DNA from: Chloroflexota bacterium
Lineage (GTDB): Bacteria; Chloroflexota; UBA11872
DNA: 52,658 bases
Assembly (NCBI GenBank): GCA_028873795.1
Contig: JAPPNP010000018.1
Span: 1-52,658 of the forward strand
Direction: 5' to 3'
Shown here: piece after piece, positions 31,092-47,031 of the stretch
How positions within the stretch are numbered: position 1 is the stretch's first letter
Layout: the number at the start of each line of letters is the position of its first letter
The notes under the pieces: generated by a model
What the model saw: only the letters and a program-made list of their open reading frames with translations
The model's database searches: none
What the model was told of the DNA's origin: nothing
Program-made: the position numbers and the translations under genes

Positions 31092-32348
31092 ATGGCGCAC
31101 CAGTTCGCACTAGTCGGTTGCGGCGGCATGGGCCGTCGTCATTTGCGGGGATTCGTGGAGCTGGCGCGGGTGCGTCCCGGCCTCGTCGAGCTGGCCGCGG
31201 TGGTGGACGTGGACCGCGAGCGGGCCGAATTCGTCGCCGGCGAGGTTGAAGAGTTTCTCGGCAACCGGCCCGCGGCTTGCACCAGCATTTCCGAGGCCAA
31301 GTCGCAGCGGCCCGAGCTGGAGGCGGCGGACATCGTCACCACCGCGGGCGCGCACCACGTCGCGGCGGCCGAGGCGCTGAATGCCGAGCTCCACGTGCTC
31401 GTTGAAAAGCCGCTGGCCGTCACCATGCGCGGTTGCGCCCAGATTCGCGCCGCCGCGTCGCGCTCCGGGTGCATGGTCTCGGTGGCGGAGAACTACCGGC
31501 GCGACCCGATTCTGCGGCTCGCGCGCGCGCTGCTGGATGCGGGCGCCATCGGCGAGCCGCGCTCCATCGTCGAGCTGCGGGCCGGCGGCAGCGACGCCAT
31601 GCTCATCACGCCCTGGAGGCACTTTCGCGAGGACGGCGGCCCCTTGATGGACGTGGGCGTGCACTACGCCGACATGATTATGTACCTCATGGGTCCCGTG
31701 GATCGGGTGGCCGGCATCACGCGGCTGCTGGAGCCGGTGCGGACCACCGGCCGCATCGACGAAGCGCCCAGCGGCATGTACGCGCGCTTCCGCGCCGACT
31801 TGCCGGACACGTTCGAGGCCACGGCGCCCGATTCGCTGCAGGCCATGCTCGGGTTCGCCTCCGGCGCCGCTGGCACCTGGGGACTCGAGCTCTCGGCCCC
31901 GGACGCAGGCCAACACCTGAGCGCCGTGCTGGGTTCGGAGGGCCGGCTCGAAACGCTCGGCGTACGCAGCGGCCGGCCGCTGAAAGTCTGGTGCGGCGGC
32001 CCGGAGCCGCTCGACGACGACGAGGTGCTCGCCCTGGCGCCCGACTTTTCGCTTGATCCCATGACGACGGATTTGTTCGGCAGCGACCGCCTGGCGCGCT
32101 ACGACTTTGCGTTCCCCCAGGCCGATCGCAAGCTGATCGCCCACGAGCTCGGCGAGCTGGCCGAAGCCATCGATTCGGGCAATCCCGTCGAGGTTGACCT
32201 CGACGCCGGCGAGGCGGCCGTGGCGCTGGTGCTCGCCGTGCACGAATCGAGCCAGGCCGGCGCGATCGTCACGCTGGACGACGTGCGCAGCGGACGCGTC
32301 AGCGCCTACCAGGACGTGACGGACCGAAAGCTCGGTCTCATCGATTGA
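31092..32348 (+). CDS. Gfo/Idh/MocA-family oxidoreductase
   Basis: 418 residues. The NAD(P)-binding Rossmann fold starts ALVGCGGMGRRHLRGF. EKPLAVT (from residue 105) carries the family's conserved Lys. The C-terminal sugar-binding domain includes GGPLMDVGVHYADMIMYLMG with the catalytic-site Asp/His pattern. The activity would be oxidation of a sugar, sugar acid or inositol. GGGAGG six bases before the ATG marks a strong start. The first membrane paralogue begins 44 bases after its stop, so co-transcription is likely. Confidence 0.94.
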   Translation: MAHQFALVGCGGMGRRHLRGFVELARVRPGLVELAAVVDVDRERAEFVAGEVEEFLGNRPAACTSISEAKSQRPELEAADIVTTAGAHHVAAAEALNAELHVLVEKPLAVTMRGCAQIRAAASRSGCMVSVAENYRRDPILRLARALLDAGAIGEPRSIVELRAGGSDAMLITPWRHFREDGGPLMDVGVHYADMIMYLMGPVDRVAGITRLLEPVRTTGRIDEAPSGMYARFRADLPDTFEATAPDSLQAMLGFASGAAGTWGLELSAPDAGQHLSAVLGSEGRLETLGVRSGRPLKVWCGGPEPLDDDEVLALAPDFSLDPMTTDLFGSDRLARYDFAFPQADRKLIAHELGELAEAIDSGNPVEVDLDAGEAAVALVLAVHESSQAGAIVTLDDVRSGRVSAYQDVTDRKLGLID

Positions 32349-32392: not shown

Positions 32393-35251
32393 GTGACCGT
32401 CGATCCGTCGGTTGTCCCGGGATTCCTGCTGCTGCTGGCGGAGTTCGCCGCGCTGGCCGCCGTGGGCTACGTGGTCGCACGGGTGGCGCTGCGGCAGGAC
32501 AACGAGCCAATGGCCCTGGCCCAAGGCCTGGTAATCGGTCTGGCGCTCTGGGGCCTCATCACCAACGTGGTGCTCTACGCGGTGCCCGGTCTTGCTGGCG
32601 CGGCCGTGGGCTGGGGCGTCGTGCTGGCGCTGAGCGCAGTGCTGGCCTGGCGCGCGCCGCAACCCATTGGGCCGCGCCCGCGCGTGGCGGCGGTATTCGC
32701 CGCAGTCGTGGTGGCGCTGCTCTGGGTGTCGACCGCTGCGCGGCAGCTTGGGTCGATCCCGGACCCCATGATCCACCTGGGGTTGGCGGCGTCGATCCGG
32801 GCGGGCGGGTTTCCTCCAGAGCTGCCCTGGGGTCCGGGTGCGCCGGCGCCTTATCACTACGGCCCAAGCCTCCTGGTCGGCCTGTTGGCGCCGCCGACGG
32901 GAACGGACCTGGCCTTTGTCTCTGAGCTGCTTGGGGTCTACGCGTGGATTGGCTTCGCGTTGGTGGTGGTGACGGCGCTGGCGCGGTACGGGTCGTGGCC
33001 GATTGCGCTACTGCTCGCCCCCCTGCTGCTCACGAGCGGGCTCTGGACATTCGCCAGCGCGGGCGCGGGGATCTTGCAGCTCCCGATTCCGGCCGGACTG
33101 CCGGACGCGGGCCTGCGCGCATCGCTGGCCGGCGTCTACTGGCCGCCGGTCGAGCTGTCGCCGACCGCGCGGTTTGTGGAAATCGTGCCCGACATCTCCA
33201 AGCCCGCCTTCACATTGGGCTATGCCCTGGCGTTCGTGGTGCTCGAGCGCGCGGCGCGCTCGGACTGCGCCTCCTGGCTCGCGACCGCGACGCTGGCGGG
33301 GTTGGTGGGTTTCCTGGGTCTGCTCTCCACCACGCTCGTGCCGGTGGTGATGTTGGCGTGGGCCGGCCTGGCGGTGGCGGACGGGGTTCGCGCGCGACGA
33401 GACGGCGCAGCCGTGAGAACGGTGCTGCGATCCGGTTTAGGCTTGGCGTTGGCGGCGCTGCTGCTCCTGCTCGATTGGACCGTGTTCACGCGGATTCTGG
33501 GCGGTGCGGGGCCCCCCGGCCTGTCGTTGGCGTGGAACCCCGACCCGAGACAGTGGGAGGCACTCGGCACGTTCGACGTGCATGCGGGCGGTGTGGCCCT
33601 TGCGGGCATGGGGCCGCTGGTCGTGGCGGGGCTTGCGGTGGCGCTGGCTTGGCGCGATCGGCTTGTGGTGGCCTTGGCGGCCGGCGCCGGACTGCTGGTG
33701 CTGGCCTGGCTGGTCGTGTCCTATCCAACCTATCCCCTCGACCTCAACCGCCTGGCGGGGCACGCCCGCAATCTCGCGTTGCTGGCGTTGCTGCCGGCGC
33801 TCGGCATTCGCCTAGCGAGCCTGCCTTCCGTGCGTTGGCGCTACGTCATCGGCGCGCTGCTGATTGGGCTGATTGTCTGGCCAACCGCCGCGGCTCAGGT
33901 GCGCAGTCTTGGTCTGGCGGTCGGGCATGGCGTGCAGCTGGCCAACGCCAATTCCGTTGAGCCGAAATTGAATGCGCGTGGCGATCTCGTGCCTCCCCGT
34001 CGGTTTCAGTTACCGGTCATGTCCGACCGCGTGGCGGACCACATCCGGGATCACACCGCCCCCGATGCGCGCGTGCTCACCTCCGAGCCGCCGTTTTGGA
34101 CGGTGTTCTTCGCCACCGGCCGCCCGAGCAATGCCGGCTTCGCCGAAATCACCCACTTGATCTACTACCTAGGCCCCGCGTATTGGGACGCCCATCGCTA
34201 TCTGGAACCGCGCGCCATGCGGCGGCTGGGTCTCGACTATGTGCACGCCACGGATACCTGGATTGCCGGGCTCCCCGAGCGCGCGCAAGGCTGGCTGGCC
34301 GACCCACGCTTATTCGAGCTCCTGGTCCGCGATGGCGCCGAGGCGCTCTACCGCGTGCGGCCGGCGTTCCTTGCGCTTGATGTCGCACCGCATGCCGAGT
34401 CGTTCGAGGCGCTGCGGTCGGCGCCAGCCGCAACGGTGGCGTATCTGGCTCCGCAAACCCTTTGGCTGGACCGGTTGCGCGTCGCCTCGGTGCTGTCGCA
34501 TGTCCGGCTGGTGGGCGTCATCGATACGGAACCCTTGCATCTGCGGTCGTCGGCGCCGTGGACCGTGGAGCCGCTGGGCGAACGGGTGCCCGATCTGGTG
34601 GTTCTCCCGGCGTCAATCGAGCCCTGGACGTGGATGTTTCCGCCGGGCGCGCGGCGGCCTGTCTGGCAGAACGAAAGGATCGCCGTCTACGCGCCGCACG
34701 GAGCATTGGCGTCAATGGCGCCACCACCTCCGGCGCGTCAGGAGCCGCCGGTCACGGTGCGAATCTCCGATGCGGGCATTGACGGTGGGCGCGTCACATT
34801 CACCGCCGCATTCCAGGAGCATGCACCGGAACGCTGGACGGGCCAGGACTGGGTCGTCGTGCGGGTTGACGGCGGGCCGTGGGGGCTCCCAACCAGATTC
34901 CAGGGGCAGGGCCGGGGACCTGAGATCGCCAAATGGTTCGGCGGACTTATCTCGTCGGGGACGGCGACCAGCTCGCACACCTACGAGCTCGACGTTCCCG
35001 CAGCGAGCTTGGCGGTCCGCGACGCCGCCGGGGCCTTGGCGCCGCTTGCGGCCTCCGACGGGGAGCTGGGTGTGGGCGCCTGGGTGCTGGCGGTCCGCCT
35101 GCGACACGAGTACCAGCCGGAATTCTGGCGCGAAACGGCCTTCATTCCAGTGCTCATGATCGCGGTCAGCGATGCTGGCGCGGTGTCCTACGCGGTGTTC
35201 GACGAGGTGCTTGACGGGGAGTCGCTCCCTGGATCGCCGGTGACGCCGTAA
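32393..35251 (+). CDS. Large GT-C-like membrane protein, tandem paralogue 1
   Basis: 952 residues; family not named with certainty. Residues 1-510 hold about a dozen membrane segments. After the fourth lies an external loop with SIPDPMIHLG (Asp124, His128), GGFPPELPW and YHYG. A loop with an acidic residue and FPP..PW/YHxG motifs recalls GT-C glycosyltransferases, especially DUF2298-type proteins. Residues 510-775 form a soluble domain (HTAPDARVLT, ATGRPSNAGFAE, LGLDYVHATDTWIAGLPERA) and 780-950 a beta-rich domain (RWTGQDWVV, GVGAWVLAVRLRHEYQP). GTG start with GGAGG eight bases upstream. Likely transfers a lipid-linked sugar outside the membrane. Confidence 0.7.
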   Translation: MTVDPSVVPGFLLLLAEFAALAAVGYVVARVALRQDNEPMALAQGLVIGLALWGLITNVVLYAVPGLAGAAVGWGVVLALSAVLAWRAPQPIGPRPRVAAVFAAVVVALLWVSTAARQLGSIPDPMIHLGLAASIRAGGFPPELPWGPGAPAPYHYGPSLLVGLLAPPTGTDLAFVSELLGVYAWIGFALVVVTALARYGSWPIALLLAPLLLTSGLWTFASAGAGILQLPIPAGLPDAGLRASLAGVYWPPVELSPTARFVEIVPDISKPAFTLGYALAFVVLERAARSDCASWLATATLAGLVGFLGLLSTTLVPVVMLAWAGLAVADGVRARRDGAAVRTVLRSGLGLALAALLLLLDWTVFTRILGGAGPPGLSLAWNPDPRQWEALGTFDVHAGGVALAGMGPLVVAGLAVALAWRDRLVVALAAGAGLLVLAWLVVSYPTYPLDLNRLAGHARNLALLALLPALGIRLASLPSVRWRYVIGALLIGLIVWPTAAAQVRSLGLAVGHGVQLANANSVEPKLNARGDLVPPRRFQLPVMSDRVADHIRDHTAPDARVLTSEPPFWTVFFATGRPSNAGFAEITHLIYYLGPAYWDAHRYLEPRAMRRLGLDYVHATDTWIAGLPERAQGWLADPRLFELLVRDGAEALYRVRPAFLALDVAPHAESFEALRSAPAATVAYLAPQTLWLDRLRVASVLSHVRLVGVIDTEPLHLRSSAPWTVEPLGERVPDLVVLPASIEPWTWMFPPGARRPVWQNERIAVYAPHGALASMAPPPPARQEPPVTVRISDAGIDGGRVTFTAAFQEHAPERWTGQDWVVVRVDGGPWGLPTRFQGQGRGPEIAKWFGGLISSGTATSSHTYELDVPAASLAVRDAAGALAPLAASDGELGVGAWVLAVRLRHEYQPEFWRETAFIPVLMIAVSDAGAVSYAVFDEVLDGESLPGSPVTP

Positions 35252-35428
35252 TCACCTCGAACACGATGGGCCAAAGCCGGACATGAGTGACAGAGGGGCG
35301 CGCGGCGTGCAGCCTTGGGAGAAGTTCGGAGATTTCAACATTGGTGGTCGCGTGGCTCCCGTGCCAATCCGCGGTGTAGTGGTTGCGGCGCAACGGTCAC
35401 TGGTGGCCGGGTCGTGGAGTTCGCGGGC
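35252..35428. other. Spacer between paralogues 1 and 2
   Basis: 177 bases with no gene. An in-frame upstream extension of paralogue 2 runs through it but has no counterpart in the other copies. Confidence 0.6.
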
Positions 35429-38260
35429 TTGACCGTAGATCCGACGGTGATTCCGGGCCTGTTGCTGCTCGTGGCAGAGCTGGTGGTGCTGGCGGCGGTG
35501 GGCTACGCCGTGGTTCGTGTGGCGCTGCGGCAAACCGACGACCGCGCGGCCCTCGCGCAGGGTTTGATGGTCGGTCCCGCGCTTTGGGGCTTGCTGGCGA
35601 ACTTCATCATGTACGTCGTCCCGGGCCTAGCCGCGGCGGCCGTTGCCTGGGCCCTTGTCATCGCTGTCGCCGCGGCGCTGGCTTGGCGATTCCCCGACCG
35701 CCTCCAAGCCAAGCCGCGCACCGTCGCCGCATTTGCGGTCGCCGTCCTGGCGATTTGCTGGGTGGCGCTTGCCAGCCGGCAATTCCTGTCGATACCCGAC
35801 GCCATCAACCACCTTGGGCTGGCCGCCTCGATCCGCGCCGGCGGCTTCCCGCCGGTGTTCTTCTGGACTCCCGACCTGCCGGCCTCTTACCACCACGGCA
35901 CCGGCCTGCTGATCGGCCTGCTGGCGCCGCCCGTTGGCCCGGATCTGGCCCTGACCACTGAAATCCTGGACGTGTGGCTGTGGACGGGCTTCTTCCTGGT
36001 CGTCGTGACGGCGCTCCTCCGCTACGCATCGAAATTTGCCGTGCTGCTCACGGCGCCATTGCTGTTCACGGCCGGAGCCTGGACCTTCATCGGCGATGCC
36101 GTCGACATCGTGCAGGTTCCGCTGCCGGCCGGGATTCCGGCGGCTGGAATCCGCGCCTCGCTGACCGAGGTCTATTGGCCGGTGGTGGAGCTGCCGTGGG
36201 CATCGGAGCGAGCGGCGCTGCCGGATATTTGGCGTTTCGTCTATACGCTGTCCTACGCGCTGGCGTTCGTGGTGCTGGAGCACGCGGCGCGGCCCGAGCG
36301 CCGCACCTGGCCCGCCACGCTCACGCTGGCTGCCCTGGTGGGTTTCGTGGGCCTGCTCGCCACCACGCTGGCCCCGATCCTGCTCGTCCTCTGGGGTGGA
36401 TTGGAAGTCGTGGCCCTGGTGCGATCCAGGGGAGATCGCACGGCGCTCGGAAATGCCGCCCTGCGATCGGGGGCCGGGCCGGTGCTTGCGCTGCTGCTGC
36501 TCGCGCTCGGCGGTGGCTCACTGGCGTCGGCGCTCACGGGTTCGGGATCGTCAGGCTTGTCGTTCGGGTGGGCCGACCATCCGGGGTTCTATCGACCGCT
36601 GGGCGCCTTGGATGTATTGGACGGCGGAGTTGGCCTGCTGCGCGGCGGCCCGGTGGTCATCGCCGGGATCGCGGCGCTCCTTGCCTGGCGCAGCCGCTTG
36701 GTCCTGGCGCTGGCGGTCGGTGTCGGGCTGCTGGTGCTGGCCGGGGTGGCGCTGCGCTACGACCCCGCGCCTTGGGTGCTCAGCCGCTTCTTTGGGCACG
36801 CGCGCAACCTCGCGTTGCTGGCCCTGCTGCTGGCGCTCGCGCCCTGCCTGTCCCGATTGCCGTCGCCGCGCTGGCGCTATGCCGCCGCCGTCTTGCTCAT
36901 CGTCCTCGTCGCTTGGCCGACGCTCGTGGCGCCGGTGCGCAACCTGGGTCTCGCGATCGGGCAGGGCGTCGCACTGGCAAACGCCGCGCCGACCCACGGG
37001 CCGCCCGATGCAGCCTTCGCCGGTCACGGTCGATTTGCGATGCCGGCAATGTCCGGCCGGGTTGCCGCCTACGCTTGGGACCACACCGCGGTTGACGCGC
37101 GAGTCTTCTCGCCCACGCCCGCTGATCTGTCCTTCGCCGCCGTGGCCTTCGCCACCGGCCGCCCGAATGCGTCGGGCTTTCTCGACCGCCAATACTTCCT
37201 GTCGCACACCGGGCCTGCGTACCTTGACGTGCTGCGCCATCTCGAGCCGGCGGCGGTTCGCCGGTTGGAGCTTGACTACATCCATGCTACGGACGATTGG
37301 GTGGCAGGGCTGCCGGAGCGTGCGGCGCGCTGGTTGGCGGACCCTAACCTTTTCGAACTCCTGATCCGCGACGGCGCCGAGGCGCTGTACCGGATCAGGC
37401 CCGCGTTTCTCAATCTCGACGTGGCGCCGGCGCCGACGTCATTCGAGGCGCTGCGCCGGGCGGTGCCCCCCGACGCCACGGTGTACATGCCCGCGCCCTT
37501 CCGCACGGTGCCCGCGCTCCGCGTGGCCGCGACGCTGTCGCATGCCCGGTTGCTCGGCTTCGTGGACCCCACGATGATGCATCTGCTGACGCCCTGGCCC
37601 TATGAGCGGTTCGCCGGGCAAGCGGCGGATCTCGTGATCCTGTGGCCCGAGGTCGAGCCGTGGATGTTCCCACCCGCCGGGCGTCAGCCCATCTGGTGGA
37701 ACGACGAGATCGCCGTCTACGCGCCCGACGGCGCCGTCGCGCCCATCATGCCGCCGCCGCCGGCCTCCGAGCCTGCCCCGGTCGCGGTGCGGGTGACGGA
37801 TGTGCGTGCCGCGGATGGACGCATCGCCTTCACCGCCACCTTCGATAACCGCGCGCCGGACCGGTGGACGGGCCAGGAGTGGGTGGTCCTGCTGGGCGAC
37901 AGGTCGCCATGGGCCATTCCGATGCACGTGGATCCCGGTGGGCGCACGCTTGGATCCGTGGCGTGGTTTCCGGGTCAGCTCGCGCCCAGCACGACGACGA
38001 ACACATTCGTCTACGAGTTCGATATTCTCGCGCCCAGCCTGGCGGTGCGGGATGCGAACGGCACGTTCACTCCGGCCGGAGGATCGGCGCAAGCGCTCGG
38101 GGCGGGGGCCTGGACGCTCGCAGTCCGCCTGCAGCATGAATGGCAGCCAAACTACTGGCGGCACGCGGGCCTGATTCCCGTGCTGCGAATCCGCGTTTCC
38201 GATGCCGGTGAGATTGCCTATGACGTCTTTGACGATGTGGTTGGCGGTTCGCGCCCCTAG
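35429..38260 (+). CDS. Large GT-C-like membrane protein, tandem paralogue 2
   Basis: 943 residues from a TTG that aligns with the starts of the other copies (M-T-V-D-P-T-V-I-P-G-L-L-L-L) and has GGAG nine bases upstream. It has the same layout as paralogue 1. The loop motif is SIPDAINHLG, and PPVFFW replaces PPELPW. The soluble domain keeps ATGRPNASGFLDR, LELDYIHATDDWVAGLPERA and RDGAEALYRIRPAFL. The C-terminal domain keeps RWTGQEWVVLLGD and AQALGAGAWTLAVRLQHEWQ. It groups by eye with paralogue 4 (AAGIRASL..VYWP, LPDIW...TLSYALAFVVLE). The divergent loop suggests a different acceptor or donor. Confidence 0.7.
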   Translation: MTVDPTVIPGLLLLVAELVVLAAVGYAVVRVALRQTDDRAALAQGLMVGPALWGLLANFIMYVVPGLAAAAVAWALVIAVAAALAWRFPDRLQAKPRTVAAFAVAVLAICWVALASRQFLSIPDAINHLGLAASIRAGGFPPVFFWTPDLPASYHHGTGLLIGLLAPPVGPDLALTTEILDVWLWTGFFLVVVTALLRYASKFAVLLTAPLLFTAGAWTFIGDAVDIVQVPLPAGIPAAGIRASLTEVYWPVVELPWASERAALPDIWRFVYTLSYALAFVVLEHAARPERRTWPATLTLAALVGFVGLLATTLAPILLVLWGGLEVVALVRSRGDRTALGNAALRSGAGPVLALLLLALGGGSLASALTGSGSSGLSFGWADHPGFYRPLGALDVLDGGVGLLRGGPVVIAGIAALLAWRSRLVLALAVGVGLLVLAGVALRYDPAPWVLSRFFGHARNLALLALLLALAPCLSRLPSPRWRYAAAVLLIVLVAWPTLVAPVRNLGLAIGQGVALANAAPTHGPPDAAFAGHGRFAMPAMSGRVAAYAWDHTAVDARVFSPTPADLSFAAVAFATGRPNASGFLDRQYFLSHTGPAYLDVLRHLEPAAVRRLELDYIHATDDWVAGLPERAARWLADPNLFELLIRDGAEALYRIRPAFLNLDVAPAPTSFEALRRAVPPDATVYMPAPFRTVPALRVAATLSHARLLGFVDPTMMHLLTPWPYERFAGQAADLVILWPEVEPWMFPPAGRQPIWWNDEIAVYAPDGAVAPIMPPPPASEPAPVAVRVTDVRAADGRIAFTATFDNRAPDRWTGQEWVVLLGDRSPWAIPMHVDPGGRTLGSVAWFPGQLAPSTTTNTFVYEFDILAPSLAVRDANGTFTPAGGSAQALGAGAWTLAVRLQHEWQPNYWRHAGLIPVLRIRVSDAGEIAYDVFDDVVGGSRP

Positions 38261-38354
38261 GCCCCTGGGGCGACCGCCGGGCAACCCGCGAGACCTTGGC
38301 GGTCCGCATGGCTGACCCGCATGGAGCGGGGCGCCCCGCGCCGGTCGCAGCGTC

Positions 38355-39896
38355 ATGGCGATGACGGAGCCGGCGAAACTGCTGAAGGCCGTTAGGCGCG
38401 GCGTGCGAATGCGCCCCACGATCGGCTCGGGCATCCGGCGGTGGCTGCTGGCGGCATTCATGGTCGGAAGCCTCGCGGCGGTGCTGTTGGCCTTGGTTGA
38501 CGCCCTTGGCTGGCGCTGGTTGGCGGGCGAGTGGCTCCAGGAGCTTGACGCCACCTACGAGCGCGGGAGCATGGACCGATTCTCCGGCGTGCTCTTTGGC
38601 ATCGTGGCCGCGCTGGCCGCGGCCCAGGCGCTCCGTCGGCCGGCTCCCCGCGGCGGTCCCCGATGGCTCTGGGTGCTCGGTTGGCTGAGCGCGGCTTTCC
38701 TCATCGCCCTCGTGGCGTTTGAAGAATTGCATCGGCAAGTCGACATCGGGTCCTTCGTCGCTCCGCTCCTTGGCCTCAAGGAGCTTGAAGAACGGTTTCG
38801 CTGGGTGCTCGTGGCGGGGCCGCTTGCCGTGCCGCTGGCCGCGGCGGCCGGTTGGGTCCTCTTTGCGGCGCAGCGCGGGCATCCCGCACGGGCGCTGCTC
38901 GCCGTGCTGGCGGTCGCGCTGGCGCTGATCGGATTGCTCCTGGACGCCACCAGCGGTCACCTGTTGCTGTATCGCGGCTTCGTCGGATGGTTCGGGTTCC
39001 CGCCCAGTCCGCCGGGCTTCTATGAGGTCTTCGAGGAGGCGTCGGAGCAGATGGCGGCGGCGGCCCTGGCCGTGGTCTTGGTCGAGATGTTGGCCGCGCG
39101 GCCCGGCGCCGTCCGCCTGCCCATCAGCCGCCGCCCGCTGGCGGTGGCGCTGGCAGTGTCGGCGGGGCTGATAGTGGTCAGCGCATTCCCGCTGGCGAGC
39201 CACCGCGTCCACAAGGGCGACGGCTGGGAGTTGGTCGCCCCGTGGTCCTATGCCGGCCCCATCGCTCTCGTCGAGCAGCCGTTCCAGGCCAACCAGGACT
39301 ACCTCCGACGCATCGACGTCTGGGCCTTCATCGACGGTGGTCCGGCCGGAGTGCCGGGAGAGATCTTCGCTCGGCTAACGCCCGAAGGCTCCGACCAGCC
39401 GATCCGCGAGAGCCGGGCGGAAGTACGCGGCGCCCGCCACAGCAACACAACGGTCTCCTTCCACTTCGAACCCATCCCCGATAGCAGCGGCAAACGCTAT
39501 ACCTTGGCTGTCGGTCTTCTGAGCGGTCCGCGCCCCTTCGTGTTCCTCGGCCTGACCCGTGGCGATGTGATCCCCGAGGGCGCCGCCGTGGTCAATGGCG
39601 ACGTGACACCCTATGCGGATGACCTGGCCATGCGGACAGCCTGGAGCGGACGATTCATCGACGGCATGTACCCGCGCGACTTGCGGCTTTGGGGACTGAT
39701 CGGCGAGGTGGTCTTCAACATCTTTCTGTGGGTGCTGGCCGTCGTCCTCGCCGCGACTCGGCTCTCCGGACCTTGGCCGGGGTTCGGGCGACGGGTGGTC
39801 TGGCCCTCGGTGCTCATCAGCGCCCTCGTGACCGCAGACATCGTCATCGTCACGCTTGCCTACCTCGCCCTGCGGTCGCCGATCCAACTCGCGTGA
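38355..39896 (+). CDS. Multi-pass membrane protein with an external beta domain
   Basis: 513 residues, not a paralogue of the flanking large proteins. Around seven hydrophobic segments lie in the first 280 residues (for example WLLAAFMVGSLAAVLLALVD, ALLAVLAVALALIGLLLDAT, RRPLAVALAVSAGLIVVSAF). A beta-rich external domain follows (about 290-440, PFQANQDYLRRIDVWAFIDG, SFHFEPIPDSSGKRYTLAVG). Two more membrane segments (VVFNIFLWVLAVVLAATRL, VLISALVTADIVIVTLAYLA) close the protein. No family is recognised. Its position between paralogues 2 and 3, with small gaps, suggests shared function in the same envelope pathway. Start ATG at 38355 (a second ATG two codons on). Confidence 0.65.
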   Translation: MAMTEPAKLLKAVRRGVRMRPTIGSGIRRWLLAAFMVGSLAAVLLALVDALGWRWLAGEWLQELDATYERGSMDRFSGVLFGIVAALAAAQALRRPAPRGGPRWLWVLGWLSAAFLIALVAFEELHRQVDIGSFVAPLLGLKELEERFRWVLVAGPLAVPLAAAAGWVLFAAQRGHPARALLAVLAVALALIGLLLDATSGHLLLYRGFVGWFGFPPSPPGFYEVFEEASEQMAAAALAVVLVEMLAARPGAVRLPISRRPLAVALAVSAGLIVVSAFPLASHRVHKGDGWELVAPWSYAGPIALVEQPFQANQDYLRRIDVWAFIDGGPAGVPGEIFARLTPEGSDQPIRESRAEVRGARHSNTTVSFHFEPIPDSSGKRYTLAVGLLSGPRPFVFLGLTRGDVIPEGAAVVNGDVTPYADDLAMRTAWSGRFIDGMYPRDLRLWGLIGEVVFNIFLWVLAVVLAATRLSGPWPGFGRRVVWPSVLISALVTADIVIVTLAYLALRSPIQLA

Positions 39897-39956
39897 CCTT
39901 CCCGGCCCGCAGGCGCCAATCAGGGTCCTCGACTAGAGCGATGTGCGAAACCCTTT

Positions 39957-40007
39957 GTCATTCCGGCGAAAAGCCTGCCCCGTACTCGATACGGGACCGG
40001 AATCCAG
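39957..40007 (+). repeat. Palindromic repeat, family A, extended-loop form
   Basis: It has the same ends as the 27-base family A element (GTCATTCCGGC ... CCGGAATCCAG). The loop is enlarged by a second hairpin, CCCGTACTCGATACGGG. It lies in the 199-base gap before paralogue 3. Confidence 0.85.
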
Positions 40008-40095
40008 AGTCCGGCCAACTCGAATCGTCGCCGGGCTCACCCGTCGATTCACGGGCCGGCCCGCCAACGACTGAGACAACCTGGAGGCGCCGCGC

Positions 40096-42933
40096 GTGAT
40101 CGTTGATCCGGCGGTCATCCCCGGCCTCTTGCTTCTCGCGGCGGAGCTCGTGGCGCTGGCGGCGGTCGGCTACGTGGTCGCGCGGGTGGTGCTGCGGCAA
40201 GACGACGAGCGCGTGGCCCTCGCCCAGGGTCTGGTGGTTGGGCTTGCGCTCTGGGGCGTGATCGTCAACTTCGTCATGTACGTGGTTCCCGGCCTCGCCG
40301 GGGCCGCCGTCGGTTGGGTCGTCACGCTGGCCCTGGGCGCGGTCCTGGTGTGGCGCGCGCCGGGCGCCATTCGGCCGCAGCCGCGCGTCGCGGCCGGCTT
40401 CATCGTGGCGGTCCTCGCGCTCATGTGGGCGGCGCTTGCCAGCCGGCAGTTGCTGGTAATTCCCGACCCGCCAATCCATCTCGGGCTGGCGGCCACGATC
40501 CGCGCGGGCGGATTCCCACCGGAGTTGCCCTGGCATGCCGGCACCCTCGTGCGCTATCACCACGGCCCCGATCTTCTGGTCGGCTTGCTGGCTCCTCCGA
40601 CGGGACCGGACCTCGCGTTCGTTTCCGAGTTGCTCGGCGCCTACGCCTGGACCAGCCTCGTCCTGATCGTGGCTGCGGCGGTGCTCCAGCGGGGATCGCT
40701 GGTCGGCGCGCTGGTCGCCGTGCCGCTCATGCTGAGCAGCGGACTGTGGACCTTCACCAATGTCGGCCCCGGCGTAGTGCAACTGCCCATTCCCGCCGGG
40801 CTGCCCGAGGCCGGCCTGCGCGCGTCACTCGGCGATGTCTATTGGCCGCACGTCGAGCTGTCCTCGACCGCGCACATCTCCGACGTCGTGGCGGATATCT
40901 GGAAGCCGGGATTCCCGCTGAGCTATGCCGTGACCTTCATCGTGTTGAGCCACGCGGCGCAATCCGACCGCTGGTCGCGCGGCGCGAGCGTCGCGCTGGC
41001 GGCATTGGTGGGATTCCTGGGTCTGCTGTCGACCACGCTCGTGCCCATCGCGGGTATCCTCTGGGCCGGCCTGGCCGCCCTGCACTTCCAGCGAATTCGG
41101 CGGACCGGCTCGACGGCTTCCGCCACGTTGGAGTCTGGCTTGGGGCCGGCGTTGGCAGTGCTGTTGCTCCTCGGCGGCGGTGGCGCGTTCACGGGAGTCC
41201 TGGACGGCGCGCCACCGTCCGGATTGGACGTGGCGCCGGGTCTCGACTCCACGCAATGGCACGTGCTCGGCTCGTTCGACGCGCGTCCCGGGGGTCTGGG
41301 CCTGCTGGGCTTGGGGCCGTTGGCGCTTGCCGGCCTCGCGGTGGCGCTGGCGCGGCGCGACCGGCTGGTGCTGTCGCTGGCGGCCGGCGCGGCTCTCTTG
41401 GTCGCTCTGTGGCTCGCGCTTACCTATCCGCCCGCACCGTGGGATCTCAATCGCCTGGCGGGGCACGCGCGCAATCTATCGCTGGTGGCGCTGCTGCTCG
41501 CCATGAGCTCGCGCCTGGCCGACCTGCCGCCCGGACGCTGGCGCGTCGCCGTTGGCGTGCTGATCGCGGGGCTGATCGTCTGGCCCACCATCGTGACGCC
41601 CGTGCGCAATCTCGGCCTCGCGATCGGCAACGGCGTGCAACTGGCCAATGCCCGATGGGTGCAACAAGAGCTGATCGACCGAGGCGAAACCGTGCCCATG
41701 CGCCGGTTTCAGCTGCGGGCCTTGACGGGACCCATGGCGGAATACATCCGCGACCACACCGACGTGGACGCGCGTGTGCTCGCCACCGAGTGGCCCTATT
41801 GGAACGTGTTCCTCGGCCCCGGCCGCCCAAACAACGCGGGATTCGCCGATGTGATCTACCTGATCTATCACCCGGGCCCGGAGTACTGGGACGCCCGCCA
41901 CTACCTCGAGCCGGCCGCGATCCGGCGATTGCGCCTCGAATACGTCCACGCCACGGATACCTGGACGGCCGGACTGCCCGACCGCGCCAAGGCTTGGCTG
42001 GCCGACCCGAGCTTCTTCGAGCTCCTGATCCGCGACGGCGACGAGGCGTTGTATCGCATTCAGCCGGCGTTCCTCGCGCTCGAGGTGGCGCCGCATCCCG
42101 AGTCCTTCGAAGCGCTGCGCGCCGTCCCGCCGTCGGCGTCGGTCTACCTCGGTCCGCAGACGCTGTGGCTGGAGCGGCTCCGAGTCGCCTCGGTGCTGCC
42201 CCACGCTCGTCTGGTGGGCGACATCAGCGCGCGGCCGCTGCACCTGCGCACGCCCGAGCCGTGGACGGTCGAACCACTGGGAGACGACGTACCAGATCTC
42301 ATCGTCCTCCCGGCGGCTGTCGAGCCGTGGACCTGGGCGTTTCCGCCCCACGCCCGGCAGCCCATCTGGCGGAACAGCGAGATTGCGGTCTATGCACCGG
42401 GCGGGGCGGTCGCCCCCATCACGCCGCCGCGAGTCGAGCTCGACGCGCCGCCGGTAACCGTCGAGATAGCCGATGCCCGCCTCGACGACGGGCGCATCGC
42501 CTTCACGGCCAGCTTCGACAACCAGGCGCCGGAACGCTGGACGGGGCAGGACTGGGTCGTGGCGCCGGTGGACACTCGGCCGTGGGAGCTTCCCGCCACA
42601 TTTGCCGACGGCGGCCGCGGACCGGGGATCGCGAAGTGGTTTGCGGGGTTGATCTCGCCAACCATGGCCACCAGCACCCACGCCTACGAGTTTGACGTGC
42701 CGGCGTCCAGGCTGGCGGTGCGCAACCAGCGCGGCGAATTGGCGCCGCTCGACGCATCGGATGGTGAAGTCGGGACGGGGGCTTGGGTCCTGGCCCTCCG
42801 CCTGCAGCACGAATGGCGGCCGAACCACTGGCGGGAGGCTGCCTTCATTCCAGTACTGCGAATCGGCGTCTCCGACGACGGCAATGTCACGTTCGAAGTC
42901 TTCGAAGAGGTTCGCGGCGAATCGCCGCCATAA
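40096..42933 (+). CDS. Large GT-C-like membrane protein, tandem paralogue 3
   Basis: 945 residues, closest by eye to paralogue 1: shared GYVVARVVLRQDDERVALAQ-type opening, VIPDPPIHLGLAATIRAGGF, PPELPW, VYWPHVELSSTA, LDYVHATDTW-like LEYVHATDTWTAGLPDRA, and LWLERLRVASVLPHARLVGD. About a dozen membrane segments, then the soluble and beta domains (RWTGQDWVVAPVDTRPWELP; GTGAWVLALRLQHEWRPNHW). GTG start with GGAGG eight bases upstream, the same arrangement as paralogue 1. A complete and apparently functional copy. Confidence 0.7.
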   Translation: MIVDPAVIPGLLLLAAELVALAAVGYVVARVVLRQDDERVALAQGLVVGLALWGVIVNFVMYVVPGLAGAAVGWVVTLALGAVLVWRAPGAIRPQPRVAAGFIVAVLALMWAALASRQLLVIPDPPIHLGLAATIRAGGFPPELPWHAGTLVRYHHGPDLLVGLLAPPTGPDLAFVSELLGAYAWTSLVLIVAAAVLQRGSLVGALVAVPLMLSSGLWTFTNVGPGVVQLPIPAGLPEAGLRASLGDVYWPHVELSSTAHISDVVADIWKPGFPLSYAVTFIVLSHAAQSDRWSRGASVALAALVGFLGLLSTTLVPIAGILWAGLAALHFQRIRRTGSTASATLESGLGPALAVLLLLGGGGAFTGVLDGAPPSGLDVAPGLDSTQWHVLGSFDARPGGLGLLGLGPLALAGLAVALARRDRLVLSLAAGAALLVALWLALTYPPAPWDLNRLAGHARNLSLVALLLAMSSRLADLPPGRWRVAVGVLIAGLIVWPTIVTPVRNLGLAIGNGVQLANARWVQQELIDRGETVPMRRFQLRALTGPMAEYIRDHTDVDARVLATEWPYWNVFLGPGRPNNAGFADVIYLIYHPGPEYWDARHYLEPAAIRRLRLEYVHATDTWTAGLPDRAKAWLADPSFFELLIRDGDEALYRIQPAFLALEVAPHPESFEALRAVPPSASVYLGPQTLWLERLRVASVLPHARLVGDISARPLHLRTPEPWTVEPLGDDVPDLIVLPAAVEPWTWAFPPHARQPIWRNSEIAVYAPGGAVAPITPPRVELDAPPVTVEIADARLDDGRIAFTASFDNQAPERWTGQDWVVAPVDTRPWELPATFADGGRGPGIAKWFAGLISPTMATSTHAYEFDVPASRLAVRNQRGELAPLDASDGEVGTGAWVLALRLQHEWRPNHWREAAFIPVLRIGVSDDGNVTFEVFEEVRGESPP

Positions 42934-43027
42934 CGCTCCGCGGCGCCGGAACTCCGTGCTTCCCGCGCGGGCATCTCGCAGGATGTGACCGGCCACAAAC
43001 TCCGACGCATTTGGCGAGGGTGCGCCA

Positions 43028-45553
43028 TTGATCGTTGATCCGGCCATCGTCCCGGGGCTTTTGCTCCTGGCGGCAAAGCTGGCGGCGCTGGCCGCGGTGG
43101 GCTACGTGGTCGTCCGCGCGGCCCTGCGCCAATCCGACGAGCGGATGGCCCTGGCGCAGGGACTGGTGGTCGGCCCCGCGATCTGGGGTCTGACTACGAA
43201 CTTCGTGCTCCACGCCGTGCCGGGACTCGCCGGCGCGGCGATCGGCTGGGGGATCACGCTGGTTCTGGGAGCGGCTCTTGTATGGCGTGCGTCCCACCCC
43301 ATCCGTCCGCGGCCGCGGGTCGCGGCGGTGTTCGTCTTGTCCGTTCTGGCGCTCCTCTGGCTGACGCTCGCCAGCCGGCAGCTGCTCGAAAGTCCGGACC
43401 CAACGCTGCATCTGGGGCTGTCGGCATGGATCCGCGCGGGCGGTTTTCCGCCGGAGATGCCCTGGAATCCGGGCAGCCCCGTGCGCTATCACCACGCCGT
43501 CGATCTGCTGACCGGACTGCTCACGCCGCCGGTCGGCCCCGACCTGGCGTTCACGCAGGAGCTGCTCGGCGCCTATGCCTGGACGGCTTTCGCGCTGGTC
43601 GTGCTGACGGCGCTGCTTCGGCGCTCGTCGTGGACCGTGGCGCTGATCGTCGCTCCGCTGCTGCTCACCGCCGGCGCCTGGACCTGGACCGACCTGGGCG
43701 GAGGCATTTTGCGCGTTCCCGTGTCCACAGGATTGCCGGCGGCCGGTATCGGGGAGTCGCTGGCCGATATCTATTGGCCGGCGCTGGGTCAGTCGTGGCC
43801 CTCCGAGCCAGCGACACTGCACGACATCTGGACTCCGTCGTTCACGCTGGGCTACGCCCTCGCGTTCGTGGTGCTGGAACGCGCAGTGCGGCCCGAGCCC
43901 GCGGCGTGGCTCGGCGTGCTCGTCCTGGCCGGGATCGTCGGCTTCTTGGGCATCCTCGTGACCTCGCTGGCGCCAGTCGTCCTGGTCCTGTGGGCGGTGC
44001 TGGCAGCGGTCCATGTCGCGCGGGAACGCTGCGCCCGCGCGGCGCTCCGATGGGGCGCTGGGCTCGCACTGGCCGTGGCGCTGATGCTCTTCGGCGGGGG
44101 CGCCTTCACCGCCATCGTTGACGGCGGTCTTTCAACCGGCTTGCGGCTTACGTGGAACCTCCATCAGACCCACTGGCAGGCCCTCGGTTCGTTCGACGCG
44201 CATGTCGGTGGTGTCGGCGTGCTGGGCCTCGGCCCGGTGGTCGTCGCGGGACTCGCCGTGCTCCTGGCGCGGCGGGATCGCCTGGTGGTGACGCTCGCAG
44301 TGGGCGCCGCCTTGCTGCTGCTGACCTGGCTAGTACTCAGCTATCCGCCTGCGCCCTGGGTGCTCAGTCGACTCGCCGGCCACGCCCGCAACCTGGCGCT
44401 GCTGGCGCTGCTGCTCGCGCTGACAGGCGTATTCTCCGGGAAACGTTCGAAACCCCTTGGTCATTCCGGCAACGGGGGACTCTTGCGGAGCCTCACCCGT
44501 GGAGCTGGCAATGCAGGTCGTGCCCACTCCCCCTGGAAGGGGGAGGGTTGGGGTGGGGGTCATCCGCGGGCTAGGCGTTGGCCGTCGACCATCTCTGCAA
44601 ACCTCGCCCTCGTGTCACGGAGCCGGCGCTTCCTGCTCGCCGTTCTGGTCGTCATCCTCGTCGTCTGGCCCACCATCGCGGGCCCGGTACACAGTCTCGC
44701 AGCGGCCGCCGGCAACGGCCTGCAGCTGGCCAACGCCAACTGGGTGCAGCGAGAGATTTACAGCCAAGGCTCGGCGGCGTCGCTGCGGCGATTTGCCATG
44801 CCGGCCATGTCCGACCGCCTGGCGCACTACGTCCGCGACCACACACCGCTGGATGCCCGCGTGCTGACGCCCGAGTGGCCCTATTGGATGGTCTCCCTGG
44901 CCACCGGACGCCCCAGCAGCGCGGGGTTCGCCGATCTGTCCCACCTCATCTACTTCACCGGCCCGGCGTACCTGGACGCCGTCCGCTATCTGGAGCCCGC
45001 CGCCATCCGAAGGCTCGGCATCGGGTACATCCACGCCACCGATGCTTGGACGGACGGCCTCCCGCCGCGCGCGCAGGACTGGCTGGCGGACCCCCAGCTC
45101 TTCGAGTTCCTGGAACACGACGGCGCGGAAGAGCTCTACCGCGTAAGGCCGGCGTTCCTAGGACTGGCGGTCGAGCCGCACCCAACGTCCTACGAAGCGC
45201 TCCGCTCGGTGCCGTCGACGACCCTCGTGCACCTCGCCCCGGATCTCGGCTGGTTGGACGGGCTGCGGGTCGCGTCGGCGCTGTCCCATACGCGCCTCAC
45301 CGGCGAAATCGACGCACGGCATCTGCACCTGCAAGCGTCTATGCCGTGGACGGTGGAGCCTCTGGGTGAGCGGACGCCTGATCTGGTGGTTCTGCCGGCG
45401 TCGCTGGAGCCGTCGATGTTTCCGACCGTGGCTTGGCGACTCGTTTGGATGGATGCTGCCGACAGGATCGCGGTCTATGCGCCAGCCTGGTCGCGCAGCC
45501 GCGCTACGAACGAATCCCCAATGGCGCTGACCGCCCGCATGGGAATCGGCTGA
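43028..45553 (+). CDS. GT-C-like membrane protein, tandem paralogue 4; repeat insertion and lost C-terminus
   Basis: 841 residues. It begins at a TTG seven bases after GAGGG (M-I-V-D-P-A-I-V-P-G), with the same membrane region and loop (SPDPTLHLGL, GGFPPEMPW, YHHA). Two defects are clear. (1) About 62 residues (roughly 470-531, bases 44435-44620) have no counterpart in the other copies and come from intergenic repeats A and E. The frame stays open. (2) The alignment ends at RIAVYAP (45483). The last 18 codons run antisense through the 3' end of the convergent oxidoreductase gene, so the roughly 150-residue C-terminal beta domain is missing. The product may still be made but is probably altered; it could be a pseudogene in progress. 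Confidence 0.7.
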   Translation: MIVDPAIVPGLLLLAAKLAALAAVGYVVVRAALRQSDERMALAQGLVVGPAIWGLTTNFVLHAVPGLAGAAIGWGITLVLGAALVWRASHPIRPRPRVAAVFVLSVLALLWLTLASRQLLESPDPTLHLGLSAWIRAGGFPPEMPWNPGSPVRYHHAVDLLTGLLTPPVGPDLAFTQELLGAYAWTAFALVVLTALLRRSSWTVALIVAPLLLTAGAWTWTDLGGGILRVPVSTGLPAAGIGESLADIYWPALGQSWPSEPATLHDIWTPSFTLGYALAFVVLERAVRPEPAAWLGVLVLAGIVGFLGILVTSLAPVVLVLWAVLAAVHVARERCARAALRWGAGLALAVALMLFGGGAFTAIVDGGLSTGLRLTWNLHQTHWQALGSFDAHVGGVGVLGLGPVVVAGLAVLLARRDRLVVTLAVGAALLLLTWLVLSYPPAPWVLSRLAGHARNLALLALLLALTGVFSGKRSKPLGHSGNGGLLRSLTRGAGNAGRAHSPWKGEGWGGGHPRARRWPSTISANLALVSRSRRFLLAVLVVILVVWPTIAGPVHSLAAAAGNGLQLANANWVQREIYSQGSAASLRRFAMPAMSDRLAHYVRDHTPLDARVLTPEWPYWMVSLATGRPSSAGFADLSHLIYFTGPAYLDAVRYLEPAAIRRLGIGYIHATDAWTDGLPPRAQDWLADPQLFEFLEHDGAEELYRVRPAFLGLAVEPHPTSYEALRSVPSTTLVHLAPDLGWLDGLRVASALSHTRLTGEIDARHLHLQASMPWTVEPLGERTPDLVVLPASLEPSMFPTVAWRLVWMDAADRIAVYAPAWSRSRATNESPMALTARMGIG
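44435..44620 (+). repeat. Intergenic repeat inserted in frame within paralogue 4
   Basis: Contains half of a family A element (GTCATTCCGGC at 44459, with the shared lead-in CGAAACCCCTTG). It also holds a family E element (44524-44563: CCCCCTGGAAGGGGGAGGGT then TGGGGTGGGGGTCAT). Both families are otherwise intergenic. Length fits 62 codons with no stop. Edges are set by comparison with paralogues 1-3 and are accurate to perhaps 15 bases. Confidence 0.7.
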
Positions 45554-46824
45554 TCCGCGGCCACCGCCTCGCGCACCACGGCGCCGTAGGCCAGCCCCAG
45601 CGGCAGCACACCGTCGGCGCTCACCGCCTCCGCCCGGTCGATCAACCCGTAGACCAGCCGCCCGCCGGACCCGTCCAGCGTGTCGCCGGGTCGCAGGCCC
45701 CGTTTGGCGTACGCCAAGACTTCCGAGGTCGGCGTCGCGCGTGGCGCGCCCGACGACGCGCCCAGCAGCGCCGCCTGGGCGATGCTCAGCGGGGTCTCGA
45801 CGCCGCACAGGTGGTACTCGCGGAACAACAGCACCCGCTCCTCGTCGCGCGAGACGCGCGTGCCGTGGAGGCGCAGGTCCTCGCGCACGCGCTCGTCGCC
45901 GCAGGTGACCACGGCCCACACGCCGGTGGCGATGTGCTCCGGCATATCCGACTTGCCGTCGGATGCCACGGCATTCGCCAGATCGACCACGCCCGTCTGG
46001 CGCAGCAGTCCGCCGGCGTCTCGCGGCGCGAACAGGTTCGGCAGCTCGTTCAAGCCCGCCGACGGCTCGTGCATCCCGCGGCAGTCCGGCCGCAGCCCCG
46101 TCATGTTGGACACGGCGCACATCTCGATCTGGGACTTGGTGCCGTCCCGGAACGAGTTGTACATCTGCGCGTTGAGCCGCAGCCGGCTCGCCGTTTCCGC
46201 GTCGTAGCCGAGACGTTCCAGGGCCTGGTCGGCGTCTCCATGGCGGTCGTGAGGGTAGAGCCGCGTGCCGCGTCCCACGGCCACTGGCTCCAAGCCGAGC
46301 GTGGCAGCCCAGTCGAACAGCTCCATGATCCCGATCGGCTGATCGCCGGCGGCGAGCGAGTAGACCACACCCTGCCGTCGCGCTTCCCGCGCCAGGGCCC
46401 AGCCGCAGCTCACGTCCGCTTCAACTGTGACCATCACCACGTGGCGGCCCTGGCCCAATGCCTCCCACGCATTTCGGGCGGCGACCTCGGGGATGCCGGT
46501 CGCATCCACGAAGACCTCGATGGGAGCGGACGCCAGCGCGTCGGCGTCGGGCGCCAAAGCGGCATTGCCGGTTTCAACCGCCGACTGCACGGCGTCCGTG
46601 CTGTCGCAGCGCACCCACTGGTCGTCCGCCCAGCCGGCGGCGCGCAGGGCTTCGGCGCCGTTGTCCGCGTTCGGATCGGCCACCGCCGCGAGTCGCAGAC
46701 CGTCCATTTGCGCGATCTGCGCCGCGATGCTCGTCCCAAACCGACCGGCGCCCGCCAGCGCCACCGTTACGGGCCGGCCGGCCGCCGCGCGAGATTCAAG
46801 TCGCTCGAGCAATGGACGCATCAT
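45475..46824 (-). CDS. NAD(P)-binding oxidoreductase with SAF-like C-terminal domain
   Basis: 449 residues. Residues 18-170 form a Rossmann domain (VALAGAGRFGTSIAAQIAQM, VFVDATGIPEVAARNAWEAL) like that of homoserine dehydrogenase. The middle carries VSCGWALAREARRQGVVYSL, AAGDQPIGIMEL and QIEMCAVSNMTGLRPDCRGM. The C-terminus (about 340-440) is SAF-like (RPGDTLDGSGGRLVYGLIDR). Proteins of this layout are often found with carbohydrate or sugar-acid genes; the reaction is unknown. GGGAGG eight bases before the ATG at 46824 fixes the start; a longer frame upstream crosses a family B repeat. Its 3' end overlaps paralogue 4 tail to tail by 79 bases. Confidence 0.85.
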   Translation of the reverse strand: MMRPLLERLESRAAAGRPVTVALAGAGRFGTSIAAQIAQMDGLRLAAVADPNADNGAEALRAAGWADDQWVRCDSTDAVQSAVETGNAALAPDADALASAPIEVFVDATGIPEVAARNAWEALGQGRHVVMVTVEADVSCGWALAREARRQGVVYSLAAGDQPIGIMELFDWAATLGLEPVAVGRGTRLYPHDRHGDADQALERLGYDAETASRLRLNAQMYNSFRDGTKSQIEMCAVSNMTGLRPDCRGMHEPSAGLNELPNLFAPRDAGGLLRQTGVVDLANAVASDGKSDMPEHIATGVWAVVTCGDERVREDLRLHGTRVSRDEERVLLFREYHLCGVETPLSIAQAALLGASSGAPRATPTSEVLAYAKRGLRPGDTLDGSGGRLVYGLIDRAEAVSADGVLPLGLAYGAVVREAVAADQPIPMRAVSAIGDSFVARLRDQAGA

Positions 46825-46841
46825 GCGGTCGGCCTCCCGAA

Positions 46842-46864
46842 TAGGGGCGGTTCGCGAACCGCCC
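46842..46864. repeat. Palindromic repeat, family B (diverged)
   Basis: TAGGGGCGGTTCGCGAACCG then CCC. It has the same outer stem as family B but a TTCGCGAA centre. Confidence 0.65.
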
Positions 46865-47031
46865 TCTCGCGCTTCTTCAATTCGTGCGGCATTTGACGAG
46901 AGTCTCGGCTGACTTGAGCCAGGCAAGCCCTAGTCTTGGACACCACGCCCAAGCCGTCCATCGTCGCAAACGCCCGACGGCACAGCCTCCGCCCGGCTCT
47001 CGCCCCTCCCCGTTCCTGGTGAGCCACTCGG

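Follow-up and report, generated by a model that had tools for sequence, protein, structure and literature searches.

Among the described systems that come nearest to the locus studied here are the mycobacterial arabinosyltransferases. EmbA, EmbB, EmbC, AftA and AftB combine a GT-C fold with extracytoplasmic C-terminal domains, and in the Emb proteins the C-terminal domain helps to decide the product, so that a swap of this domain changes the glycan made (PMC3044687). In the three-component systems (GtlB, YfhO and others), a sugar is loaded onto polyprenyl phosphate, a flippase takes part, and the transfer is performed outside the cytoplasm by a GT-C enzyme (PMC8035078). By sequence, the nearest described group is DUF2298/Chlor_Arch_YYY, whose true DUF2298 proteins occur at about two per genome.

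The window, i.e. the whole stretch of 52,658 nucleotides that was analysed, comes from a Chloroflexota bacterium and holds a tandem array of very large GT-C-like genes. With Emb and Aft these genes share the GT-C fold, which is here predicted, and the extracytoplasmic C-terminal domains. Whereas Emb and Aft are few fixed genes, this array holds 4 to 12 copies and bears signs of module exchange. With the three-component systems it shares the proposed chain of lipid-sugar, flippase and external GT-C enzyme; unlike in those systems, neither a loading enzyme nor a flippase was recognised adjoining the array. Overall, we consider it probable (roughly 0.6) that the genes encode lineage-specific GT-C-fold glycosyltransferases, distant kin of DUF2298/Chlor_Arch_YYY, kept at one chromosomal place in an array that gains, loses and recombines its copies.

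Genes of the array and their sequence relatives

The initial annotation had described four homologous reading frames in head-to-tail order, the second and third separated by an unrelated membrane protein, and both descriptions were confirmed (Table 1). Copies 2, 3 and 4 are 54%, 64% and 60% identical to copy 1, far beyond chance, and the mean column identity of the four is 68%. The intervening 513-aa protein has no Pfam family, its only match being insignificant. The reading frame of copy 2 can alternatively be read from a TTG at 35315. The motifs M-x-V-D-P, D-x3-H, FPPxx(P/F)W and YH(H/Y) were found in 4/4 copies as annotated. The soluble-region motif (Y/H)ATD.W..GLP was also present in all four, but its first position had been drawn too broadly: in the window it is always His (HATDxWxxGLP).

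Table 1. Features of the array and its borders in the window (aa, amino acids)
Feature	Position	Strand	Remarks
Gfo/Idh/MocA oxidoreductase	31092..32348	+	Upstream border, constant; Pfam
Copy 1, GT-C-like, 952 aa	32393..35251	+	GTG start; ORF and alignment
Copy 2, GT-C-like, 943 aa	35429..38260	+	TTG start; ORF and alignment
513-aa membrane protein with soluble stretch	38355..39896	+	Unrelated to the GT-C-like family
Copy 3, GT-C-like, 945 aa	40096..42933	+	GTG start; modelled by AlphaFold2
Copy 3, N-terminal module, aa 1-665	40096..42090	+	Membrane GT-C part and first soluble subdomain
Copy 3, first large external loop, aa 118-172	40447..40611	+	Asp124, FPP..W, YHH
Copy 3, C-terminal module, aa 676-935	42121..42900	+	Includes beta-sandwich domain, aa 787-935
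Copy 4, 841 aa	43028..45553	+	TTG start; without C-terminal beta domain
Copy 4, in-frame repeat-like insert, ~aa 471-528 (~58 aa)	44438..44611	+	Ends approximate
DRL-type oxidoreductase	45475..46926	-	Downstream border, convergent; Pfam PF21135

Copy 4 lacks the last ~150 aa, which correspond to the beta-sandwich domain, and its tail overlaps the convergent DRL-type gene in antisense. Its orthologues in two other species (G002 and G003) carry in-frame inserts at the same site with different sequences; G001, G004 and G005 have none. The inserts lie between two membrane helices and include stretches such as KPLGHSGNGG and KPLRHSREGGNP. They resemble translated palindromic repeats.

Neither Pfam nor NCBIfam gave a match above cut-off for any of the four copies. 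For PF10060 (DUF2298) the window copies reached 19.8 bits against a cut-off of 27.8, and for TIGR03662 (Chlor_Arch_YYY) 18.7 and 22.3 against 300.25. At the profile-profile level, by contrast, the resemblance to DUF2298 that had been remarked on proved to be real homology. Aligned by hhalign with 24 DUF2298 sequences, the family gave a probability of 93.0 (E 3.5e-7, 604 columns), as against at most 0.6 for controls in which either alignment was reversed or shuffled in blocks of 40 columns. One relative (G020:C19) passes the PF10060 cut-off unaided with 29.8 bits, and this match lies inside a family copy.

The likeness extends over about 600 columns and takes in the external-loop block (FPP, then W, and a block rich in Tyr) as well as the stretch around an invariant Arg that precedes the soluble domain. 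On the other hand, the present family is multi-copy, has an extra C-terminal beta domain, and carries YH(H/Y) in place of YYY. The YYY-x-G motif is absent from all four window copies, and H155 is found in 77/78 members, while YYY is invariant in the DUF2298 comparison set, a set that was itself aligned on YYY. Since the window copies fall under the curated cut-offs and lack YYY, the sequence profiles argue for a separate, distant sister of DUF2298/Chlor_Arch_YYY rather than a member of it. The present family has no name in either Pfam or NCBIfam. A sequence search of the PDB gave no meaningful match to any solved chain, and the plasmids searched held no relative.

Predicted fold and the putative catalytic acid

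The AlphaFold2 model of copy 3 (78 sequences) had a pLDDT of 90.7 and a pTM of 0.89. Its ten best PDB matches were all GT-C enzymes or complexes containing one: DPY19 (E 7e-6), AftA (E 2.8e-5, TM 0.46 by target length) and OST/STT3 complexes (from E 1.5e-3) were among them, with 5/10 below E 0.001. The TM-scores were moderate, mostly 0.3-0.5 by target length. Against a viral structure library, the model matched nothing below E 1e-3. The GT-C layout that had been proposed, with structure prediction as its check, is thus supported, and the model makes the assignment of the family to the GT-C fold a strong one. Because the family has no solved sequence relative and no Pfam or NCBIfam match above cut-off, a glycosyltransferase activity is predicted from fold and motif.

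In GT-C(A) enzymes, the first external loop contains juxtamembrane helix 1, and the catalytic Asp occupies the tip of this helix (PMC12041299). Asp124 of copy 3 directly precedes the loop helix 125-136, a matching placement by which we regard it as the putative catalytic acid, and the position is acidic in 75/78 members. Both P141 and E178, the latter just past the external loop, are invariant among the 78. Which conserved acid of DUF2298 corresponds to Asp124 is ambiguous in the alignment, by a few residues. Three members without an acid at 124 (L041:1088-3928, L044:10007-12829 and L058:7060-9825) may be inactive.

The C-terminal beta domain (aa 787-935) was confidently modelled as a beta-sandwich (pLDDT 91). 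No PDB structure matched it below E 1e-3; the best value was 2.8e-3, and the matches were of mixed kinds. Given such insignificant matches, we do not label the domain a carbohydrate-binding module, and acceptor binding by it is proposed by analogy.

Range of the family and the locus in sister species

The family is almost confined to one small Chloroflexota order, where it was found in 22/24 genomes (species) with up to 18 copies per genome. When we searched 41 genomes of the class (E <=1e-10), only two genomes outside the order had matches, both weak (8e-18 and 2e-14). In ~85,000 bacterial and archaeal genomes, a pattern-based scan picked up 26 loci, every one of them in a Chloroflexota MAG. 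The named MAGs include sponge-derived bins. The 'jk18x' bins originate from Ircinia sponges (PMC9531527), and the bin names 'COS' and 'RHO' would fit Coscinoderma and Rhopaloeides, two sponge hosts in PMC8163846. The group may correspond to UBA2235/UBA11872, a lineage published at class level in which the UBA11872 part was found only in corals and sponges (PMC10608941). In four cases (G013:C180, G015:C152, G018:C27 and G020:C19) a copy contains one stop inside the match; such copies could be decayed, or be frameshifted assemblies, or be matches running beyond the gene end.

Within one genus, six species have the array flanked by the same two genes, with 4 copies in the window and 7, 8, 12, 9 and 7 in the sister species. 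The Gfo/Idh gene is directly upstream in 5/5 sister species and 90-97% identical to that of the window; the DRL-type gene adjoins the array in 5/5 and is 84-88% identical. The annotation's set of four is therefore right for the window array and undersells the family, since the locus holds 4-12 copies and a single genome up to 18. A profile of the four found seven copies in the window's own genome. Around the array we found no polysaccharide cluster, and the neighbours scanned in the window serve mostly general metabolism and transport.

Copies 2 and 3 have orthologues in G003 (copies 8 and 9, 92% and 84% identical, dN/dS 0.17 and 0.23). The 513-aa gene, among the six arrays, occurs only in the window and in G003 (88% identical, dN/dS 0.17), and the order of copy 2, 513-aa gene and copy 3 is kept there. 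The last copy of the array lacks the beta domain in 6/6 species and forms one orthologous clade (support 100); the dN/dS of copy 4 with its orthologues, 0.37, is the highest among the array pairs measured. The orthologue pairs measured are under purifying selection (dN/dS 0.17-0.37, compared with 0.06-0.07 for the Gfo/Idh gene and uvrA). That copy 4 is a decayed pseudogene was considered and rejected, because the array ends in this truncated copy in six species and the copy evolves under purifying selection.

Since copies 2, 3 and 4 each have orthologues in sister species, they are old paralogues, and most paralogues of the array are older than the six species. For copy 1, none of the five sister species has a full-length orthologue, and its nearest relatives change along its length; in the tree, six copies of G003 form a private expansion. 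The annotation had further paired copies 1 with 3 and 2 with 4, and had suggested that a two-gene unit was duplicated. Of these pairs, the first is allowed (AU p 0.63), but a clade joining the orthologues of copy 2 to those of copy 4 was rejected (AU p 0.029), so the duplication is not supported.

The locus itself may be older than the genus. In G006, a single-contig genome of another genus, one broken and one intact copy (G006:C1:2238179-2243656) also abut a DRL homologue (77%), so this border, too, may be old. Among relatives outside the genus, L049 and L050 have family copies that begin beside mreB, mreC, PBP and rodA-like genes, i.e. a cell-elongation cluster.

Module histories, proposed role and alternatives

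We compared pairwise distances between segments across 41 full-length array copies, with shuffled columns as the null. The membrane part and the first soluble subdomain agreed with each other, as did the second soluble subdomain and the beta domain, while between these two groups rho was 0.21-0.35 against a column-shuffled null minimum of 0.50 for the sizes tested. Subdomain 541-665 tracked the later membrane blocks (rho 0.69-0.81), whereas 666-775 tracked the beta domain (0.66) and not the membrane part (0.24-0.28). For the whole N and C modules, rho was 0.28, compared with a null minimum of 0.70 and with 0.84 for a control split inside the N module, and the correlation dipped near aa 660. 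The effect was weaker among 44 copies from outside the genus (rho 0.41, null minimum 0.43, control 0.66). Imposing the clades of one module on the data of the other was rejected by AU tests in 5/5 cases (p 1e-5 to 0.008), where the p values serve as a guide because the clades were picked after the trees were seen.

Individual cases agree with this pattern. Over most of the N module copy 3 is nearest to copy 9 of G003, but at aa 751-825 to copy 10 (91% vs 71%). In G004, copies 1 and 8 lie ~18 kb from each other and have in common a run of at least 210 codons that are identical in nucleotides, with diverged flanks. This tract came from a codon-by-codon comparison of one pair; a 90%-identity repeat search of the whole regions found none inside the six arrays and missed it because that search reports whole alignments. 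The window copies hold no near-identical repeats as a recombination signature, the longest exact match being 20 nt. Since all the genomes here are MAGs, the G004 tract could be an assembly error; for the cross-species cases, with their many differing sites, such an error is a less ready explanation. Taken together, the N module (1-665) and the C module (676-935) have different histories, which points to modules being exchanged between copies; within one genus, the support for this is good.

From fold, motif and analogy we infer catalysis, donor, acceptor and an adaptive role. The enzymes are likely to use lipid-linked sugars and to tailor surface glycans, with the C module reading the acceptor, as the effect of the Emb C-terminal swap on the glycan suggests. 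A cytoplasmic GT-2 enzyme would put a sugar on polyprenyl phosphate, a flippase would turn the lipid-sugar across the membrane, and the array enzyme, via Asp124 at the tip of the external loop, would hand the sugar to a growing surface glycan or glycoprotein outside, the C-terminal module helping to pick the acceptor. The genome has a GT-2 protein nearest to dolichol-phosphate mannose synthase (DPMS; E 6.4e-28) and a second one nearest to DPMS/ArnC-type enzymes, which may fill the first of these steps. GtrA was dropped as a candidate flippase, there being no match in the genome. Exchange of C modules between tandem copies would create new combinations and leave sister species with different sets, and a copy without the beta domain may serve another or a broader acceptor. 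On this basis we tentatively suggest that the locus could be a system in which recombination diversifies the surface glycans of sponge-associated bacteria: reassorted catalytic and acceptor-recognition modules would let related species, perhaps strains, show different glycans to host, phages or neighbours.

It is also conceivable, if again rather doubtful, that GT-C paralogues with fixed, separate roles undergo neutral birth and death, conversion being a by-product of tandem repetition with no diversifying function. The age of most copies, with orthologues in sister species, and the purifying selection on the measured pairs would suit this; tandem paralogues recombine in any genome, and a few neutral conversions could give the modules differing histories. 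Less expected from neutral turnover are the three-fold range in copy number between flanking genes that remain 84-97% identical, the six-copy expansion private to G003, and a break in history near one place (~aa 660) instead of scattered breaks.

A role as STT3- or DPY19-like protein glycosyltransferases, each copy serving one sequon or one secreted or surface protein, seems unlikely. The C-mannosyltransferase DPY19 and STT3 complexes are among the best PDB matches, and the DPMS-like enzyme is a plausible source of lipid-linked mannose; however, these matches reflect the common GT-C core (TM mostly 0.3-0.5), AftA, an arabinosyltransferase acting on a polysaccharide, matches about equally well, and among the genes adjoining the array none proved specific to protein glycosylation.

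More improbable still is that convergent or relaxed evolution of the C module, without recombination, produced the differing histories. The C module does vary more than the N-terminal end, and copies might have converged there on similar acceptors, but the adjacent segments 541-665 and 666-775 follow different partners (the membrane blocks and the beta domain, respectively), orthologue pairs change partner along the gene, and the identical tract of at least 210 codons needs DNA exchange, or else an assembly error. That the proteins are transporters or structural membrane proteins merely resembling GT-C enzymes is very unlikely: they have no Pfam family and their GT-C activity is a model-based prediction, yet the fold matches, the DUF2298 homology and the conserved external acid all argue against it.

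We return to the reading of an array of recombining glycosyltransferases that tailor surface glycans. To our knowledge, no description exists of expanded arrays in which very large GT-C enzymes have exchangeable modules; a limited search of open papers, which cannot rule one out, found no account of the family. The family can now be modelled. If confirmed, the arrays would amount to a mutagenesis series made by nature, from which one could learn what determines the acceptor of GT-C enzymes; until now, engineered Emb chimaeras have been the way into this question. They would also be a candidate source of variation at the cell surface in a Chloroflexota lineage about which little is known and whose named members include sponge-derived bins, where the trading of modules would offer a natural route to new surface sugars.
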